From the NCBI GenBank assembly GCA_016871895.1, contig VHBO01000008.1, positions 1 to 64,000 on the forward strand: DNA of 64,000 bases, read 5' to 3'. How positions within the stretch are numbered: position 1 is the first letter of the stretch; every line of letters begins with the position of its first letter. Positions 19,719-55,414 of this stretch are shown piece by piece. Under the pieces are notes generated by a model. That model was not told where the DNA came from, did not search any database, and saw only the letters and a program-made list of their open reading frames with translations. Source of the DNA: Gemmatimonadota bacterium (GTDB taxonomy: Bacteria > Gemmatimonadota > Gemmatimonadetes > Gemmatimonadales > Gemmatimonadaceae). A program made the position numbers and the translations under genes.

Positions 19719-20771
19719 TCAGGGCCCGCGGCCGAAGAGATAGACGCACTTCTCAAGGCGCGCGCCGCGTGCGTCGCAGACCGCGAAGTCGGCGCCTTCG
19801 TAGAGCGACCCGCCCGCGTAGCGGCCGTCCTTCGTGACCGCGTAGAACTGGATGTCGAAGTTCGGCCGACCCCGGGCGTTCAGCAGGCGCGGCTCGGTCA
19901 TCGCGACGAGGCGCTCGAGGGTCTTGAGCACCGCGACCTCGGGCGCGAGCCCCTGTCGCAGGAATTCGACCGTGAGGAAGCCGCCGCAGATCTTGATGTT
20001 CGCCTCGCCGCGGCCGGTGGAGCCGGCGGCGCCGGCGGTGTTGTCGCAGTACTGCCCCGCGCCGACGATCGGGGAGTCGCCGATGCGCCCCGGGATCTTG
20101 TACGCCATCCCGCTCGTCGTGGTGACCGAGCTGATGTCCCCGGCGGCGTTGACGGCGTTCATGTTGATCGTGCCGTGTGTGGTGTTGATCCGCACATCGT
20201 CGTCGTGGTCGAGCCAGAAATCGTTCGGGTTGAGGCGCGCCTTCCAGCGGAGCCAATCCTGTCGTGACTTCTCGGTCAGGAGGTTCTGGGGGGTGAAGCC
20301 GAGGTCGAGCGCGAAGCGGCGGGCCCCTTCACCGACGAGGATCGTGTGGTCGGTGTAGTCCATCACTGCCTTGGCGACGAGGCTCGGCGTGGCGATGTCC
20401 TCGAGGCAGGCGACGGCGCCCGCCCGCTTGGTCGGGCCGTGCATACAGCTGGCGTCGAGTTGGACGACGCCGTCCGCGTTGGGGAGGCCACCGAGCCCGA
20501 CGGATTGGTCGTCTGGGTCCAGTTCCTGGATGTTCACCCCGGCGATGATCGCGTCGAGGGTGTCGGTCCCCGCGACGATCCGATCATAGGCGAGCTTCAC
20601 GCCGCGGAGGCCGTTGGCGGACGAGACGACCACGGGGCGGGTGGCGCCTGCGATGGGGGCAGGTCCCGCCGTGCCGATCGCGGTGAGGGCCGCATCGGCG
20701 TCGGCGGGGCGTGCGGCGATGGCGGCCGCGGCTGCGGCGGTGGAGGCGAGGAAGTCGCGACGGGAGGTCAT
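19719..20771 (-). CDS. Tat-exported isoaspartyl peptidase / L-asparaginase (Ntn hydrolase)
   Basis: The 350 residues begin with a twin-arginine signal (S-R-R-D-F-L-A plus an Ala-rich hydrophobic stretch). The family is glycosylasparaginase/isoaspartyl aminopeptidase, in which the precursor cuts itself to expose a Thr nucleophile. The conserved region H-G-T-I-x-M-N-A, T-T-T-S-G-M and G-R-I-G-D-S-P is intact. Thr in H-G-T is the expected cleavage-site nucleophile. The ATG at 20771 was chosen for the Tat signal; upstream codons are repeats. A heptamer array begins a few bases before the start codon and would form the whole leader. No ribosome binding site is evident. Confidence 0.92.
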   Translation of the reverse strand: MTSRRDFLASTAAAAAAIAARPADADAALTAIGTAGPAPIAGATRPVVVSSANGLRGVKLAYDRIVAGTDTLDAIIAGVNIQELDPDDQSVGLGGLPNADGVVQLDASCMHGPTKRAGAVACLEDIATPSLVAKAVMDYTDHTILVGEGARRFALDLGFTPQNLLTEKSRQDWLRWKARLNPNDFWLDHDDDVRINTTHGTINMNAVNAAGDISSVTTTSGMAYKIPGRIGDSPIVGAGQYCDNTAGAAGSTGRGEANIKICGGFLTVEFLRQGLAPEVAVLKTLERLVAMTEPRLLNARGRPNFDIQFYAVTKDGRYAGGSLYEGADFAVCDARGARLEKCVYLFGRGP

Positions 20772-20776
20772 GAGGA

Positions 20777-20839
20777 GGTGTGAGGGGTTAGGGAGCAGGG
20801 ACCAGGTGTCAGGGATCAGGGAGCAGGAGTCAGGGATCC
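20777..20839. repeat. Heptamer array 1 (nine units, NCAGGGA-like)
   Basis: Nine consecutive 7-base units lie in perfect phase with no interruption. Most match GGGANCA (rotated NCAGGGA). It starts 5 bases upstream of the isoaspartyl peptidase ATG, so it occupies that gene's 5' leader. Confidence 0.85.
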
Positions 20840-20877
20840 CGGGGCAGTGCAATCGGTGCGTGGGCGGAATCCGTCGG

Positions 20878-20910
20878 CCGGACCTGCCGTATTCTGGTGC
20901 GGCAGGCCGG
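20878..20910. terminator. Hairpin in the divergent gap
   Basis: The stem pairs CCGG plus CCTGCCG with CGGCAGG plus CCGG, with one bulged A and a 10-base loop. It sits between heptamer arrays 1 and 2. A terminator in a divergent gap is unexpected; it may be part of the repeat-rich insulator or regulatory region. Confidence 0.45.
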
Positions 20911-20929
20911 AACCTCGTAACCTCCCCCT

Positions 20930-20980
20930 TCAGGTGTCAGGTCACAGGTCACAGGTGTCTGAGACCTGACACCTGACCCC
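20930..20980. repeat. Heptamer array 2 (NCAGGTN-like, inverted)
   Basis: Four units of AGGTNNC are followed in the same 7-base phase by three units in reverse complement. The outer arms, TCAGGTGTCAGGTC at 20930-20943 and its exact complement at 20963-20976, form a 14-bp stem. It lies 27 bases before the ATG of the next plus-strand gene. Confidence 0.85.
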
Positions 20981-21007
20981 CGGCCCCTGCCCTTCCTCCC
21001 CTCCCCA

Positions 21008-21379
21008 ATGCCCCCCACGAAGCTCGACTCCGCCGGGATGATGAAGCTGAAGACGCTCGGCGAGGCGGCGTTGACGCTCCAGAAGATCCACGCCCTCGTC
21101 GAGCGGATGGCGGTCGAGGTGAAGGCGCAGCGGCCAGTGGGGGTGATGCCGCAGCAGATCAAGCGGGTGGCGACGCCGTTGCAGGGGCAGCTGAAGGGGC
21201 AGTTCAGTCTCATCGCGGACCAGGTGGCGCAGCTCATCCTCATCGCGGGGCGCGGGGGGAACGAGCAGGTGCGGCTGCGCTCGCTCCGGGAATTGACCGC
21301 GCAGCTCCGCACGATGGTGGAGCTCTCGGAGGCGAAGGTGCGCGATCAGCACACGGTCCCGATCGAACCCGCGGGGTAA
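21008..21379 (+). CDS. Small helical cytoplasmic protein of unknown function
   Basis: The product is 123 residues, with no signal peptide, cysteine or membrane segment. The sequence is amphipathic and predicted almost entirely helical, with heptad-like spacing of Leu/Val/Met from about residue 10 to 60 and again from 80 to 112. It ends in a short polar tail. It resembles small conserved hypothetical proteins rather than any named family. The codon use matches neighbouring genes, and the opposite strand offers only a weak alternative. It precedes the oxidase operon but has its own upstream region; the ctaC promoter lies after it. Confidence 0.65.
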   Translation: MPPTKLDSAGMMKLKTLGEAALTLQKIHALVERMAVEVKAQRPVGVMPQQIKRVATPLQGQLKGQFSLIADQVAQLILIAGRGGNEQVRLRSLRELTAQLRTMVELSEAKVRDQHTVPIEPAG

Positions 21380-49992: not shown

Positions 49993-50708
49993 CCGCGGCG
50001 GTGCCCCGCTGGGCTGCGACGCTGCAGCGCGTCACCCGGTACTGCTCCGAGGATCTCGGTGGCGGTCCCCGCCCGTGGCGGCTCTCGACGGTCATCAATC
50101 TCCAGAAGGGAGGGACGCTGCCCGTCCTCGCCCTGCTGATGTGGCACTATGGCGCGCCGACACCGGCGGCCTGGACCTATCTGGCCCTGCACGGCGGCTA
50201 TGGGCTCGTCTGGCTGCTCAAGGACTTCGCCTTCCCCGACCCGCGCTGGCGCGTCCCCGTCACGATCGGCGGCGGGCTCGCGGCCTTCGCCCTCGTCCTC
50301 GGCCCCTACTGGCTTGCGGGGTGGCTCCTGATCTCGCATCGCGTGGTCCCGCGCTATCCCTTCCCCGCAAGTGCGTGGCTCGCGGGATGCGTGCTGCTCT
50401 GTCTCCTCGGGAGCGTGCTGATGGTGGTCGCGGACGCCCAGAAGTTCTTCACGCTGCGGCTCCGCTCGGGACTCATCACGGATGGTGTCTACCGATACAT
50501 CCGGCACCCGAACTACCTTGGCGAGATGATGATCTACGGCAGTTTCGCGCTCGTCGCGTGGCACTGGATCCCCGCGCTCGTCCTGCTCTGGGTCTGGGGC
50601 GGGGTCTTCGCGGTGAATATGGTGATGAAGGAGGCGTCGCTCGCCCGGCACGCCGGATGGGCCGAGTATCGCGCCCGCACCTGGTGGCTCATCCCGGGGG
50701 TGTTCTGA
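49989..50708 (+). CDS. ICMT/PEMT-like integral membrane methyltransferase
   Basis: This 239-residue protein has five or six membrane helices. The C-terminal third has the isoprenylcysteine methyltransferase-like signature: G-V-Y-R-Y-I-R-H-P-N-Y-L-G-E near residues 164-177, and later E-A-S-L-A-R-H-x-G-W-x-E-Y-R-A-R-T near the end. Such enzymes use SAM to methylate carboxyl, amine or other groups on lipid-like substrates. Its ATG overlaps the PycTM-like stop, and its own stop overlaps the ATG of the arylsulfotransferase gene (TGATG). Confidence 0.85.
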   Translation: MTAAVPRWAATLQRVTRYCSEDLGGGPRPWRLSTVINLQKGGTLPVLALLMWHYGAPTPAAWTYLALHGGYGLVWLLKDFAFPDPRWRVPVTIGGGLAAFALVLGPYWLAGWLLISHRVVPRYPFPASAWLAGCVLLCLLGSVLMVVADAQKFFTLRLRSGLITDGVYRYIRHPNYLGEMMIYGSFALVAWHWIPALVLLWVWGGVFAVNMVMKEASLARHAGWAEYRARTWWLIPGVF

Positions 50709-52111
50709 TGCGGCAATGGTGGCTTTGCGCGCTCACGCTTCTCCTCGCCGCCTGTGACGCGCTGACTTCGCCAGCCTCGGATGCGCCGACGGTCGAGGCC
50801 ATCCGGATCGATACCACCGTCGCGAACGCGCTCGCGCGCGTCGTGACGGTGCGGCTCTCCCGCCCGGCGCCGGCGCGCGTCACCTGGGGCGCTGAGGGGA
50901 CCAAGGTGCTGACGCTCGTGAGCGACAGCGTGCTCGCCGAGCATCGGTTTCTCGTCCCGCGGCTGCGGCAGCGTCGGACGTACACGCTGGAGGCGGTCGC
51001 CGAGGGGAGTGCGTCGGCGCCCGTGCGGCGGACGACCTTCACGATGCCGGCGATGCCGTCGGCGCTCTTCGCCGCGACCTTCACCGCGACCGGGACGCCG
51101 AGCCACCCGGTGCAGCTCATTGAGATCGTCGGCGCGAGCGGGGGGCTTGGTGGACTCCTGATGGTTGAGGACGGGGAGATCGTCGGGCATCTGCCCGTGG
51201 TCGGCTCGCTCTTCGGCGCGACACGACGGGCGTCGGGCACGTACGTCCTGCTCGACCCGCTGAAGGGACTGGTGGAGATGCGGATCGACGGCAGCACGGT
51301 GCGGACGCTCCCGCATCCCGCGACCGGCGCGCCGACGGCGTACGGTCGCATCCATCACGACGTGATCGCGACCCCGCAGCAGACCCTGCTCTTCATCGCG
51401 AACGAGACGCGATTGGTCGGCGCGGATTCGATCGTCGGCGAAGCGCTCTGGGAGTGGGTCCCGGAGACCGGCGCCGTGACGAAGCGTTGGAGCGCGTTCA
51501 CGGAGCTCGACTGGAACACCTTGCGCGGCTCGCGCTCGGTGCCGGGCAACTGGCTGCACGGCAATGCGATCAGCTATGGCCCGCGAGGCAACGTGCTGAT
51601 GTCGTTGCGGAATGCGGACCACGTGATCTCGATTGCCCCCGACTTCTCGCGGATCGAGTGGCGCCTCGGCGGACCCACGGGGACGCTCGCCATCGATTCG
51701 GCGGATGTCTTCCTCGGGCAGCACTACGTGACGGAGCCGACACCCGGTCGGGTCCTGATCTTCGACAACGGGTGGGAGCGGCCGGGCGTGCCGTACTCGA
51801 GGGCGATCGAATTCGGGATCGATACCATCGCCCGCCGAGCGACGCGGGTCTGGCAGCACCGACCCGCGCCCGACATCTATGCCGCCCTCGTCGGCTCGGC
51901 GCGCCGCACCGACGAAGGGCGGACCCTGATGCTCTTCGGGATGCTGCAGGGTCAGAACGGGTCGACGGGACCGATCACGGCGATCGAAGTCTCATCGACC
52001 GGCGCGGAACGCTGGCGGCTGACCGCCGGCGGCACCCTCACCCGCCTCTACCGGATCACGCCGGTCGATGCGGTGGCGGGGGAGGTGGAGGGGGCGTTCA
52101 AAGGGCGCTGA
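50708..52111 (+). CDS. Arylsulfotransferase (ASST)-family lipoprotein
   Basis: The product is 467 residues, with a lipobox L-L-A-A-C (Cys16). An Ig-like N-terminal segment (about 25-120) is followed by the six-bladed propeller typical of bacterial PAPS-independent arylsulfate sulfotransferases. The conserved H-H-D near 220, W-L-H-G-N-A-I near 280, S-L-R-N-A-D-H-V-I-S-I near 298 and Q-H-Y-V-T-E-P-x-P-G-R-V-L-I-F-D-N-G near 340 align with ASST active-site blades. Family members move sulfate between phenolic compounds in the periplasm; ASST homologues of unknown activity also exist. It is the last gene of a coupled operon and its stop lies within the first heptamer of array 3. Confidence 0.82.
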   Translation: MRQWWLCALTLLLAACDALTSPASDAPTVEAIRIDTTVANALARVVTVRLSRPAPARVTWGAEGTKVLTLVSDSVLAEHRFLVPRLRQRRTYTLEAVAEGSASAPVRRTTFTMPAMPSALFAATFTATGTPSHPVQLIEIVGASGGLGGLLMVEDGEIVGHLPVVGSLFGATRRASGTYVLLDPLKGLVEMRIDGSTVRTLPHPATGAPTAYGRIHHDVIATPQQTLLFIANETRLVGADSIVGEALWEWVPETGAVTKRWSAFTELDWNTLRGSRSVPGNWLHGNAISYGPRGNVLMSLRNADHVISIAPDFSRIEWRLGGPTGTLAIDSADVFLGQHYVTEPTPGRVLIFDNGWERPGVPYSRAIEFGIDTIARRATRVWQHRPAPDIYAALVGSARRTDEGRTLMLFGMLQGQNGSTGPITAIEVSSTGAERWRLTAGGTLTRLYRITPVDAVAGEVEGAFKGR

Positions 52112-52206
52112 AGGCTGAAGACTGAAGGCTGAAAGCTCAAAGCTGAAAGCTGAGTGCTGAAAGCAGCTTCCAGCCTTCAGCCTTCAGCCTCCAGCTTTCA
52201 GCATTC
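52109..52206. repeat. Heptamer array 3 (8 direct plus 6 inverted units) spanning a convergent gap
   Basis: Fourteen 7-base units run without a single phase slip. Eight match TGAARGC with at most two changes. The next six are the reverse complement (AGCYTTC). The array begins on the TGA stop of the sulfotransferase gene and ends at the TGA stop of the convergent BNR protein gene, so it is the whole intergenic sequence. It can fold into an arm of about 42 bp with mismatches. Confidence 0.92.
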
Positions 52207-55200
52207 ATGCAATCGGCTTCGGCGCCGGCACGTGCACCGCCGGCAGCCCGCGCTCCCGGAGTTGGCCGTTCAGCCGCTCGAGGCCCTCTCCCTCCACCTG
52301 TCGTAGCCGCTCGAGTTGGCGCTCGAACTGCCCGTTGAGCGTGTCGTAGATCTCGCCGTGCTGTCGCGTCGGGGCGTACGCCCCCGACTGCACCTGCATG
52401 TTCAGCGTGATGAGCTTGTTGTAGAGCTTCGTCGGCATATCGAGGGTGCACTGGTCGACGTGGCATCCCACCTCGTATAGCTCCTCGCGCACCGACTCGA
52501 GGCGCGCCCGCACCGCCTTGGCCGAATCGACCGCCGGTCCGCCGTCGAGGCGTCCGATCCGGTCGTCCATCTGCCGCTGCAGGTCCTCCACGCGCTTCAC
52601 GGCATCGACCACATCGTTCACGCGGTCCACGGCGCGTCGTGCGGCCTGATACTGCGCGACGAGATCGGCGGTGCTTGAGGTGACCCGCGGATCCGCGACC
52701 ACCTGGACGGTCCGGGCGAGCGTGTCGCGGCCGACGGTGAGTCGCACGGTGTAGGTGCCCGGCGGGACGACGGGGCCACGCGTCGTCCCGTAATCGATCA
52801 CCGTGTTCGGCAGCTTCCGGATCCCCGGGAGGCGGAGGTTCCAGACGAAGCGATTGCTCCCGCGGCGCGTCGGCACGATTGAATCCGCCGGCGCGAAGGC
52901 GAGCGCGTCGTCGACCTCCGCGGAGTCGGCGGAGGTGAAGCGGCGGAGCCGCTCCCCCTGCGCGTCAAAGATCTCGAGTGTGACCGGGCTGGTCGGGACC
53001 TCGCGGAGCCAGAAATCGATGAGCGCGCCCGAGGGTGGGTTCTCTCCCGTGCCATCCCCACCGCGTGCGCCCTCCCAGAGAATCGCGCGCGCCGGCTGGA
53101 AGAGGTGCGCCGCGCGGCGCGTCACACTGTCGGCGAGCTGCCGGAGCGGCGAGAGGTCGTCGAGGACCCAGAAGGCGCGGCCGTGCGTCGCGGCGATGAG
53201 ATCGTTCCCGTGGACCTTGAGGTCGCGGACGCTCACCCGCGGGAGGTTGAGCTGCAACGGCTGCCACGCGGCGCCGTCATCGAACGACACCCAGACGCCG
53301 AGCTCCGTGCCCGCGTACAGCAGCCCGCGACGCATCGGGTCCTCCCGCACCACGCGCGTATACGCCGTGCGCGGGATGCCGTTCACGATCCGGGTCCAGG
53401 TGCGGCCGTAGTCGCTGCTCTTCCAGAGATACGGGGCGAAGTCGTCCTGCTGGTAGCGATTCGCAGCCACATAGACGGTCGCCGGATCGAAGGGCGACGG
53501 GTCGATGTGCGCGGTGCGTGTGAAGGCCCCGTACGCGGGGGGCGTGACATCCTGCCACGTCGTCCCGCCATCGCGCGAGACGTGGATCCGCCCGTCGTCC
53601 GATCCAGCCCAGAGCACCTGCGGCGTCCGCGGCGACTCGGCGAAGGCGTAGATCGTCGCATACCACTCGGCGCCGGTCATCTCCCCGTGGATCGGCCCCC
53701 CGGTGCGCTCGAGCGTCATCGGGTCCGCCTTCGTCAGGTCGGGGCTGATCCGCTCCCAGCTTGCCCCCTCGGTGCGGGAGCGCCAGACGTGCTGCGAGGT
53801 CACGTAGAGGGTGCGCGGGTCGTGCCGCGAGACGAGCACGGGGAAGGTCCACTGGAACCGCTCGCGCACGTCCTTGGCCGCCCAGCCGTCCCAGTTGATC
53901 TCGGTGACGGAGATGTCGCGCTCCTGTCGGCTGCGCCGGTCGTAGCGTGAGAGCTGGCCGAGGTAGCATCCGCCATAGGTGACGTTCGGGTCGCGCGGAT
54001 CGAAGGCGATCGTCGCGTTCTCACACCCGGCGACGGAGAAGTAGTCGCGGAGGCCGATCCCGCCCTCTTCACCGCGCGAGGCGACGGAGATCGCCGAGTT
54101 GTCCTGCTGCGCGCCGTAGATGCGGTACGGGAACTGGTCGTCCGCGTTCACGTGGTAGAACTGTGCCGTCGGCTGCGTGTGCTGGCTCGACCAGGTGACG
54201 CCGCGGTCGAAGGAGATCGTCGCGCCGCCGTCGTTCCCGAGGATCATCCGCGACGGGTCCGCCGGGTCGATCCAGAGGAGATGCTGGTCGCCGTGGGGCG
54301 CATCGAGTTCGGTGAAGGTCTTCCCGCCATCGATCGACTTTAGGACGCTCAGGTTCATCACGTAGACGGTGTTCTCGTCCGCGGGATCGGCGGTGACGGC
54401 GGAGTAGTACCAGCTCCGCACCCACATCCGCGGGTCGTCATTCATCCGCGTCCAGGTGGTACCGGCGTCATCGGAGCGGAAGAAGCCGCCCGAGGAGTCG
54501 GGCGCCTCGATGTTCGCGTAGAGGCGATTCGGGTTCGCGCGCGACACGTCGAGGCCGATCTTGCCGAGCGGGCGCTTCGGGATGCCCGGCATCCGGGTGA
54601 GCTCGGTCCAGGTGTCGCCGCCGTCGGTGGTCTTCCAGATCCCGCTGCGGCCGCCGCCAGCGAGCATCGACCATGGGGTCCGCTGGAACTTGTAGGTGGA
54701 GGCGTAAAGGACGCGCGGGTTCGACGGGTCGATGGTGAGGTCGTTCACCCCGGTGGAGTCATCGATGAAGAGCACCTTCTTCCAGCTCTTCCCGCCGTCG
54801 AGCGTGCGGAAGATGCCGCGCTCGGGATTCGGCCCGAAGGCGTGACCGATAGCAGAGACGTAGACGCGGTCCGCATCGCGTGGATCGACGATGATGTCGG
54901 TGATCTGGTGCGTCTCGGCGAGCCCGAGCGACGCCCAGGTCGCCCCGGCGTCGGTGGAGCGGTACATCCCGGTGCCGAAGGTGAGGTCTTCGCGGAGCTG
55001 CGACTCGCCACTGCCGACGTAGAGGACGTTCGGGTCGCTCGGGGCCACGGTGATCGCGCCGACCGACGACAGATCGGACTTCCCGTCGGTGAGGTTCTCC
55101 CACGTGATGCCGCCGTTCTGGGTGCGCCAGACGCCGCCGTTCACCGCGCCCATGTAGAAGAGGAAGGGCTTCCGCAGGTCGCCGACCACCGCATCGACGC

Positions 55201-55414
55201 GGCCGCCGCGATACGGGCCGACGCTCCGCCACCGGAGGGCCTTCAGCGCGCGGTCGGTCGCCGTCGGGGAGGTGTAGATCGTGGGGTCGTACGCCGGCAG
55301 GGCGGGCGCGGCGGCGGGGGTTGGCCGGGTGCGCTGCGCACCGGCGAGGGCGGGCAGGAGGACGGCGATGAGGGCGGGGGCGACGCGGCGCGTCAGCGAG
55401 CGGAGGTTCGGCAT
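52205..55414 (-). CDS. Secreted BNR/VPS10-like multi-propeller protein
   Basis: This 1069-residue protein starts with a signal peptide (about 1-26, ending A-L-A-G-A-Q). It then has W-R-S-V-G-P-Y-R-G-G-R, the typical start of this large secreted family in Gemmatimonadota and Bacteroidota, often annotated as glycosyl hydrolase or sialidase-like. The first 700 residues hold repeated Asp-box motifs S-x-D-x-G-x-T-W (for example at about 135, 205, 260 and 380). The C-terminal 350 residues hold a beta domain and a helical region. No glycosidase catalytic set is recognised, so enzymatic activity is unproven. Its ATG is 17 bases from a divergent gene. Confidence 0.88.
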   Translation of the reverse strand: MPNLRSLTRRVAPALIAVLLPALAGAQRTRPTPAAAPALPAYDPTIYTSPTATDRALKALRWRSVGPYRGGRVDAVVGDLRKPFLFYMGAVNGGVWRTQNGGITWENLTDGKSDLSSVGAITVAPSDPNVLYVGSGESQLREDLTFGTGMYRSTDAGATWASLGLAETHQITDIIVDPRDADRVYVSAIGHAFGPNPERGIFRTLDGGKSWKKVLFIDDSTGVNDLTIDPSNPRVLYASTYKFQRTPWSMLAGGGRSGIWKTTDGGDTWTELTRMPGIPKRPLGKIGLDVSRANPNRLYANIEAPDSSGGFFRSDDAGTTWTRMNDDPRMWVRSWYYSAVTADPADENTVYVMNLSVLKSIDGGKTFTELDAPHGDQHLLWIDPADPSRMILGNDGGATISFDRGVTWSSQHTQPTAQFYHVNADDQFPYRIYGAQQDNSAISVASRGEEGGIGLRDYFSVAGCENATIAFDPRDPNVTYGGCYLGQLSRYDRRSRQERDISVTEINWDGWAAKDVRERFQWTFPVLVSRHDPRTLYVTSQHVWRSRTEGASWERISPDLTKADPMTLERTGGPIHGEMTGAEWYATIYAFAESPRTPQVLWAGSDDGRIHVSRDGGTTWQDVTPPAYGAFTRTAHIDPSPFDPATVYVAANRYQQDDFAPYLWKSSDYGRTWTRIVNGIPRTAYTRVVREDPMRRGLLYAGTELGVWVSFDDGAAWQPLQLNLPRVSVRDLKVHGNDLIAATHGRAFWVLDDLSPLRQLADSVTRRAAHLFQPARAILWEGARGGDGTGENPPSGALIDFWLREVPTSPVTLEIFDAQGERLRRFTSADSAEVDDALAFAPADSIVPTRRGSNRFVWNLRLPGIRKLPNTVIDYGTTRGPVVPPGTYTVRLTVGRDTLARTVQVVADPRVTSSTADLVAQYQAARRAVDRVNDVVDAVKRVEDLQRQMDDRIGRLDGGPAVDSAKAVRARLESVREELYEVGCHVDQCTLDMPTKLYNKLITLNMQVQSGAYAPTRQHGEIYDTLNGQFERQLERLRQVEGEGLERLNGQLRERGLPAVHVPAPKPIA

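Follow-up and report, generated by a model that had tools for sequence, protein, structure and literature searches.

Between an asparaginase-type gene and the gene that diverges from it, the stretch of Gemmatimonadota DNA analysed here (the window; 64,000 nucleotides) contains two tandem arrays with a step of seven bases, and a third array lies between two convergent genes further along. Do such arrays reflect one process acting on different seeds, as an initial annotation proposed, or the dispersal of a single repeat?

Heptamer arrays in the window

The presence of heptamer arrays was confirmed, and their coordinates are collected in Table 1. Array 1 consists, as first described, of nine in-phase units; it starts 3 bases away from the asparaginase start codon, which begins at 20771, and in the sense of the asparaginase mRNA it forms a CCCTGA-type leader. 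The best lag-7 segment in the divergent gap (20772-21007) scores 21.5, whereas 3000 dinucleotide shuffles average 4.4 and peak at 11.0, none reaching it, and in a scan of lags 3-30 only 7, 14, 21 and 28 stand out. The four direct units reported for array 2 are present, and its inverted part, given as three units, comprises two clear and two degenerate ones. Arrays 1 and 2 had been said to differ in unit sequence; both are in fact CAGG followed by three variable bases (CAGG+NNN), and CAGGTGT occurs inside array 1. Because the two belong to one family, exchange or dispersal of units between gaps is needed too. Array 3 (52107-52207), whose two mirrored arms occupy the gap of a convergent gene pair, does differ in its unit and belongs to a second family, GCTGAAR/YTTCAGC; its lag-7 score of 48.0 is reached by none of 3000 dinucleotide shuffles.

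Within the spacer of the divergent gap, at approximately 20878-20910, an inverted repeat with perfect arms (CCGGaCCTGCCG ... CGGCAGGcCGG) flanks the sequence TATTCT, which could be a -10 element. The 123-aa gene beyond array 2 has no Pfam match.

Table 1 Arrays and neighboring genes in the window.
Feature	Coordinates	Strand	Description
Asparaginase_2 family gene	19719..20771	-	350 aa; SRRDFL twin-arginine-like N-terminus, read by eye
Array 1	20775..20837	+	nine in-phase CAGG-type heptamers, purine-rich strand outward from asparaginase start codon; units in order GAGGTGT GAGGGGT TAGGGAG CAGGGAC CAGGTGT CAGGGAT CAGGGAG CAGGAGT CAGGGAT
Spacer between arrays 1 and 2	20838..20929	.	divergent promoters presumably inside
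Array 2, direct part	20930..20957	+	TCAGGTG TCAGGTC ACAGGTC ACAGGTG
Array 2, inverted part	20965..20992	+	CCTGACA CCTGACC clear, CCCGGCC CCTGCCC degenerate; heads towards ATG at 21008
123-aa gene	21008..21379	+	precedes cytochrome c oxidase subunit II gene
Array 3, left arm	52107..52163	+	GCTGAAR units; begins within stop codon of + gene 50708-52111
Array 3, right arm	52164..52207	+	YTTCAGC units; ends at stop codon of - gene 52205-55414

A seven-base period between genes of the genome and the phylum

Genes were called with a home-made codon-based gene caller in stretches of the genome from which the window derives (G000; 2.28 Mb, 129 contigs). The pattern CAG(N4CAG)x3 has 64+53 matches in this genome and its backward (GAC) counterpart 2+4; the backward pattern is an unclean control in the phylum survey, where GAC-type heptamers form real arrays in other genomes. 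The comparison of intergenic lag-7 signal with shuffled sequence, proposed along with the initial annotation, came out in favor of a period of seven. Across 432 kb of this genome, most of it in stretches picked for holding CAG arrays, we counted 36 intergenic lag-7 segments versus 0.0 per shuffle and 0 in coding DNA, with 2 segments at lag 6 and 0 at lag 8; since the first set of stretches was chosen around known matches and the second away from them, array density for this genome is biased. The 80 loci of relatives, fetched by asparaginase homology and not for arrays, gave 31 lag-7 segments versus 0.3 in shuffles, and 0, 1, 3, 3 and 4 segments at lags 5, 6, 8, 10 and 11, respectively. When 40 genomes of the phylum were each sampled with a single stretch of at most 20 kb, 14 segments appeared at lag 7 and 2, 0, 6 and 1 at lags 6, 8, 9 and 10. 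In the gap set of another genome, G044, a run of N adds a count of 1 at every lag and in the shuffles. Tandem period 7 is over-represented between genes here, as in the intergenic heptamers of the Rehm and STRR type.

At least one CAG-type match was found in 83 of 150 genomes of the phylum, and by hand count 31 of the 150 have at least 20 matches to the CAG or GAC pattern, a number reached by none of the 53 'same class' genomes outside the order to which G000 belongs. These counts are lower bounds, the two patterns covering just a portion of the units that could occur. Of the 415 gaps sampled, some of them in DNA selected for its arrays, 40 are array-bearing (9/68 convergent, 21/254 tandem and 10/93 divergent).

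An assembly artefact was rejected as the source of the phenomenon: GAC-type arrays sit inside a 5.3-Mb contig of G080, and G073, with a first contig of 3.14 Mb, is rich in GAC-pattern matches. Contig C2 of G080 contains very uniform GACTCGG arrays, which among the places listed are on one strand only, unlike elsewhere.

Two unit families with a fixed core

The 65 non-coding chains of this genome fall into two families, 43 CAGG and 22 CAGC, which have only a tetramer in common, in opposite strand sense. Positions 1-4 of the units are nearly fixed, including position 4, which was not used in detection and is 89% G in the CAGG family and 95% C in the CAGC family. Positions 5-7 vary within arrays, with the exception of position 6 of the CAGC family (88% T). 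At positions 5-7, agreement between neighboring units is 51% and 62% in the two families, versus 38% and 51% between arrays; this agreement reflects local duplication, plus something that holds the core.

The commonest CAGG-family unit is CAGGGGT (41 of 250 units), CAGGT units with GG runs only make up ~42% of that family, and GGG is absent from the GCTGAAR/CAGCYTY family. The units of this genome are CAGG+NNN and GCTGAAR, not a GGGNATC unit with four G-tracts; GGGAATC itself is present in the relatives L034 and L063. Exact TAACTGA is absent from the unit tables of this genome. Two relatives, L034 and L097, carry mostly different units across four and five gaps, respectively.

Mixed arrays, in which GCTGAAR is joined to a CCTGANN family, occur in this genome at L119:209-261 and L130:10077-10174, and in the former the seven-base register is preserved across the junction. 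A proximal-to-distal age gradient was considered and rejected: gene-side units beyond the exact chain are 2.00/4 core-like (n=16) versus 1.22/4 for the second unit (n=49), figures on which we do not rely because purine bias confounds them.

Arms lie close to codons and point outward

The median distance of an arm in this genome to a start or stop codon is 2 bp, and 34 of 53 arms are no more than 5 bp away versus 16% expected under uniform placement. The purine-rich strand leads outward from the gene edge in 48 of the 53 (24 purine-rich at a left edge and 24 pyrimidine-rich at a right edge; the remainder are 4 exceptions and 1 neutral arm); with respect to the G-rich strand, these 48 conform within 50 bp and 44 of 53 within 20 bp. 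The rule is followed at start edges (22/23, 1 breaking it), at stop edges (26/30, 3 breaking it and 1 neutral), in single-arm gaps (26/27) and by all 13 arms in convergent gaps; array-free convergent edges are near skewless (+0.03/-0.03). It is followed by 30 of 36 arms in G044 and 13 of 18 in G080, and is weak in mixed relatives (22 arms in line with it, 14 contrary and 13 neutral). By eye, the stop codon is in phase with GCTGAAR-family units in 8 of 12 cases, one of the eight being a TAA (binomial 5e-5).

Arms of one gap usually share a unit

The reverse complement of an array's unit recurs elsewhere in the same gap for 20/38 arrays in this genome, 18/30 in G044, 7/10 in G080 and 31/55 in others, versus 55/1520, 91/1200, 9/400 and 19/2200, respectively, in other gaps, which are mostly array-free. 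Same-strand recurrence within the gap is seen for 3/38, 1/30, 0/10 and 11/55. Compared array with array, units are at least 6/7 identical in 61% of 41 same-gap pairs and in 20-32% of different-gap pairs of one genome; between genomes the figure is 3%, versus a shuffled-unit baseline of 2%. Divergent gaps are mirrored as well (5/11 in this genome, 0/3 in G044, 3/3 in G080 and 4/10 in others). Base-level copying between the two arms of a gap was rejected for this genome, where positions 5-7 agree at 0.354 within a gap and 0.372 across gaps (14 pairs).

The same gaps in a sister genome

In G028, a genome of the same genus, the orthologous divergent gene pair is 45 bp apart and array-free; the distance here is 235 bp. 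Three orthologous gaps carry different unit families in the two genomes: L118:6154-6403 (in both arms), L125:16445-16520, whose switch relative to L280 falls outside the 95 compared gaps, and L184:8364-8433, where the array of this genome is below threshold and was seen by eye. In three others (L111, L121 and L123) the family is unchanged. Among the 95 orthologous gaps, 4 have arrays in both genomes, 3 in this genome only, 2 in G028 only and 86 in neither (Fisher 1.6e-4, part of the G028 DNA having been chosen for holding arrays); the unbiased G028 stretches (L291-L310) alone give one both-array gap above threshold, plus L184:8364 by eye.

Several further observations were made in the relatives. 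Near position 1500 of L263 and L271 in G028, arrays run over the ends of genes and seem to provide the stop codon; L283 and L289 each contain an array inside a region aligned to coding sequence. L292 of G028, the orthologue of L111:13653-13731, has ~11-12-base repeats (GCTGAGCGATC-like) where this genome has GCTGAAA heptamers. L042, from a contig titled Candidatus Kuenenia stuttgartiensis, encodes an asparaginase 72% identical to a Gemmatimonadaceae one; the record is probably mis-binned or mislabelled.

Family searches for candidate enzymes

Y1_Tnp (PF01797), RVT_1 (PF00078) and Ku had no match in any of the seven genomes of the genus that were examined, G000 included, and RVT_1 was present in only 24 of 150 genomes. 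On these searches, production of the arrays by a Y1/RAYT transposase, a reverse transcriptase or Ku was rejected for this genus; a recognisable dedicated enzyme (RAYT, RNA-templated addition or Ku end joining) is accordingly not needed.

Discussion

The proposal of one process acting on different seeds, with no single repeat dispersed, is partly supported. It fits the phylum, where L034 and L097 have mixed units, unit identity between genomes is near baseline and orthologous gaps carry different families; within this genome it falls short, the arrays there being two shared degenerate families.

Our leading reading, held tentatively and with close to an even chance of being correct, is that the arrays are intergenic heptamer satellites produced by copying at the DNA level with a seven-base step, rather than one dispersing repeat; a gene-regulatory role would be secondary and is unproven. 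The observed step of seven would arise by polymerase slippage during replication, a short purine-rich seed next to a start or stop codon being repeated away from the gene. Fold-back or template switching across the gap may then supply the inverted arm, giving the two arms the unit that they are seen to share, and template switching at short homologies could account for the pattern of units swapped between gaps of one genome, the annealing four-base core staying fixed while the other three bases are shuffled. Selection would purge arrays that enter genes, so that arms end at codons, and may favor the orientation observed in this genome, which gives pyrimidine-rich RNA on reading into a gene.

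DNA-level copying is supported by period 7 alone standing out in intergenic DNA, both here and in relatives' DNA not chosen for arrays, and by the unit shared between arms of the same gap, including divergent gaps, where one transcript is not expected to span both. It is also supported by the three gaps that keep an array in G028 while its unit family changes, by the array-free counterpart of the window gap in that genome, by the proximity of arms to codons and by the likeness of neighboring units at positions 5-7. Four observations count against it. Simple slippage followed by neutral decay would not keep positions 1-4 near fixed while 5-7 vary; arms of one gap in this genome are not base-level copies at positions 5-7; the outward rule is weak in mixed relatives; and slippage does not predict that rule at stop codons, as in the convergent arms, the cause of which our preferred reading leaves unexplained.

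The chief rival, which we regard as rather unlikely, is a selected binding or insulating element, in which a DNA- or RNA-binding protein recognises the TCAG/CTGA-containing core, or genes are insulated by the arrays through C-rich RNA entering the gene (Rho-utilisation-like). Selection would maintain core, orientation and edge position, and the fixed core beside variable positions 5-7, the orientation kept at both start and stop edges in this genome and the retention of array position between species despite unit change all agree with this. Such an element does not predict period 7, however, and it fits poorly with units that differ between gaps in some genomes and are near baseline identity between genomes, with two families in one genome that have a single tetramer in common on opposite strands, and with most gaps being array-free even in a sample partly chosen for arrays.

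Dispersal of one mobile repeat family, whether REP/RAYT-like, MITE-like or by gene conversion of a founder array, is improbable. The recurrence of two families over 65 chains and the 28% of different-gap array pairs that reach 6/7 identity would suit it, but Y1_Tnp is unmatched in all seven genomes of the genus examined, the units vary from genome to genome and, in L034 and L097, from gap to gap, and arms are unlike at their variable positions.

A further reading, which we consider a long shot, starts from the geometry: the purine-rich strand leaves the gene edge 3'-wards whatever the direction of the gene, with the same unit on both sides of the gap, as in 3'-end extension at a break of the kind seen at telomeres. 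Gaps would then be recurrently broken, capped and rejoined with no recognisable reverse transcriptase or Ku involved, an ordinary polymerase re-priming on the four-base core and copying seven, and the unit word would be swapped whole.

It is very doubtful that the two arms serve as an RNA stem-loop, either a bidirectional terminator or a structured UTR. Array 3, between convergent genes, folds better than 200 of 200 shuffles (z -3.65, DNA parameters), although no T-run is visible by eye after the hairpin, and the array-bearing share of convergent gaps (9/68) exceeds that of tandem (21/254) and divergent (10/93) ones. Against this reading, the fold of the window's divergent gap is only moderately better than that of its shuffles (z -2.21; 6 of 200 do as well), variable positions of arms are unmatched, and 27 of 40 array gaps have one arm only at the threshold used. 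Divergent gaps are mirrored too, which makes a single RNA hairpin inadequate if, as we presume, promoters lie between the arms.

A G-quadruplex element of the kind that Rehm 2015 (PMC4692102) put forward for the GGGAATC-type repeats of Xanthomonas and Nostoc is highly improbable here: CAGGGGT is the commonest CAGG-family unit and the placement rule matches the one in that paper, but many CAGG-family units have only GG runs, and the GCTGAAR/CAGCYTY family obeys the same edge and outward rule with no GGG run, so that G-quadruplexes are unnecessary for the rule. Least probable of all is an enzyme dedicated to terminal addition, whether RNA-templated (telomerase- or retron-like) or working through Ku-dependent end joining, which would give the outward geometry as 3'-end extension from both sides of a break but for which RVT_1 and Ku were unmatched in the genus and RVT_1 is scarce among the 150 genomes.

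Relation to known heptamer repeats

The arrays resemble the cyanobacterial STRR heptamers (Calothrix), of which several different tandem kinds occur per genome. According to Rehm 2015 (PMC4692102), heptamers are over-represented among the repeats of many bacterial genomes; GGGAATC and GGGGA(C/T)T heptamers of two Xanthomonas genomes and one Nostoc genome are placed outward, and the cause of the step of seven is only hypothesised, with a polymerase footprint suggestion cited. Those repeats have in common with ours the heptamer step, the intergenic and genome-wide distribution and the same outward rule, and many of their array positions are common to two species, with sequence variation. In contrast to the repeats described there, our units combine a fixed 4-base core with three bases that vary, G-runs are missing from a second family, the arms of a gap are often mirrored and divergent gaps are undepleted relative to tandem ones.

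The TAACTGA repeats of Beggiatoaceae, some Cyanobacteria and Bacteroidetes, as portrayed in MacGregor 2015 (PMC4679880), likewise lie a few bases upstream of start codons, and their reverse complement, TCAGTTA, includes TCAG as do units here; they differ in having one exact unit, mostly in 2-6 copies on one side of the gene in the main genome. In Geobacter metallireducens, Aklujkar 2009 (PMC2700814) describes heptanucleotide elements that are also tandem, one class having the consensus MTYCTGA and one being paired on opposite strands; they differ from ours in their few copies and in being described as putative regulator-binding sites.

The literature searched, from which subscription journals were mostly absent, yielded no description of heptamer arrays in Gemmatimonadota. 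New here are the phenomenon in this phylum, units that are degenerate around a fixed core, mirrored arms whose unit is specific to the gap, the swap of units while the site is kept, and an outward rule that extends to a family lacking G-runs. The Gemmatimonadota form a natural series, in which the same gap and geometry occur with a different word, alongside array-free orthologs. Because period and placement are kept and sequence is not, models based on slippage, template switching and binding sites become testable.
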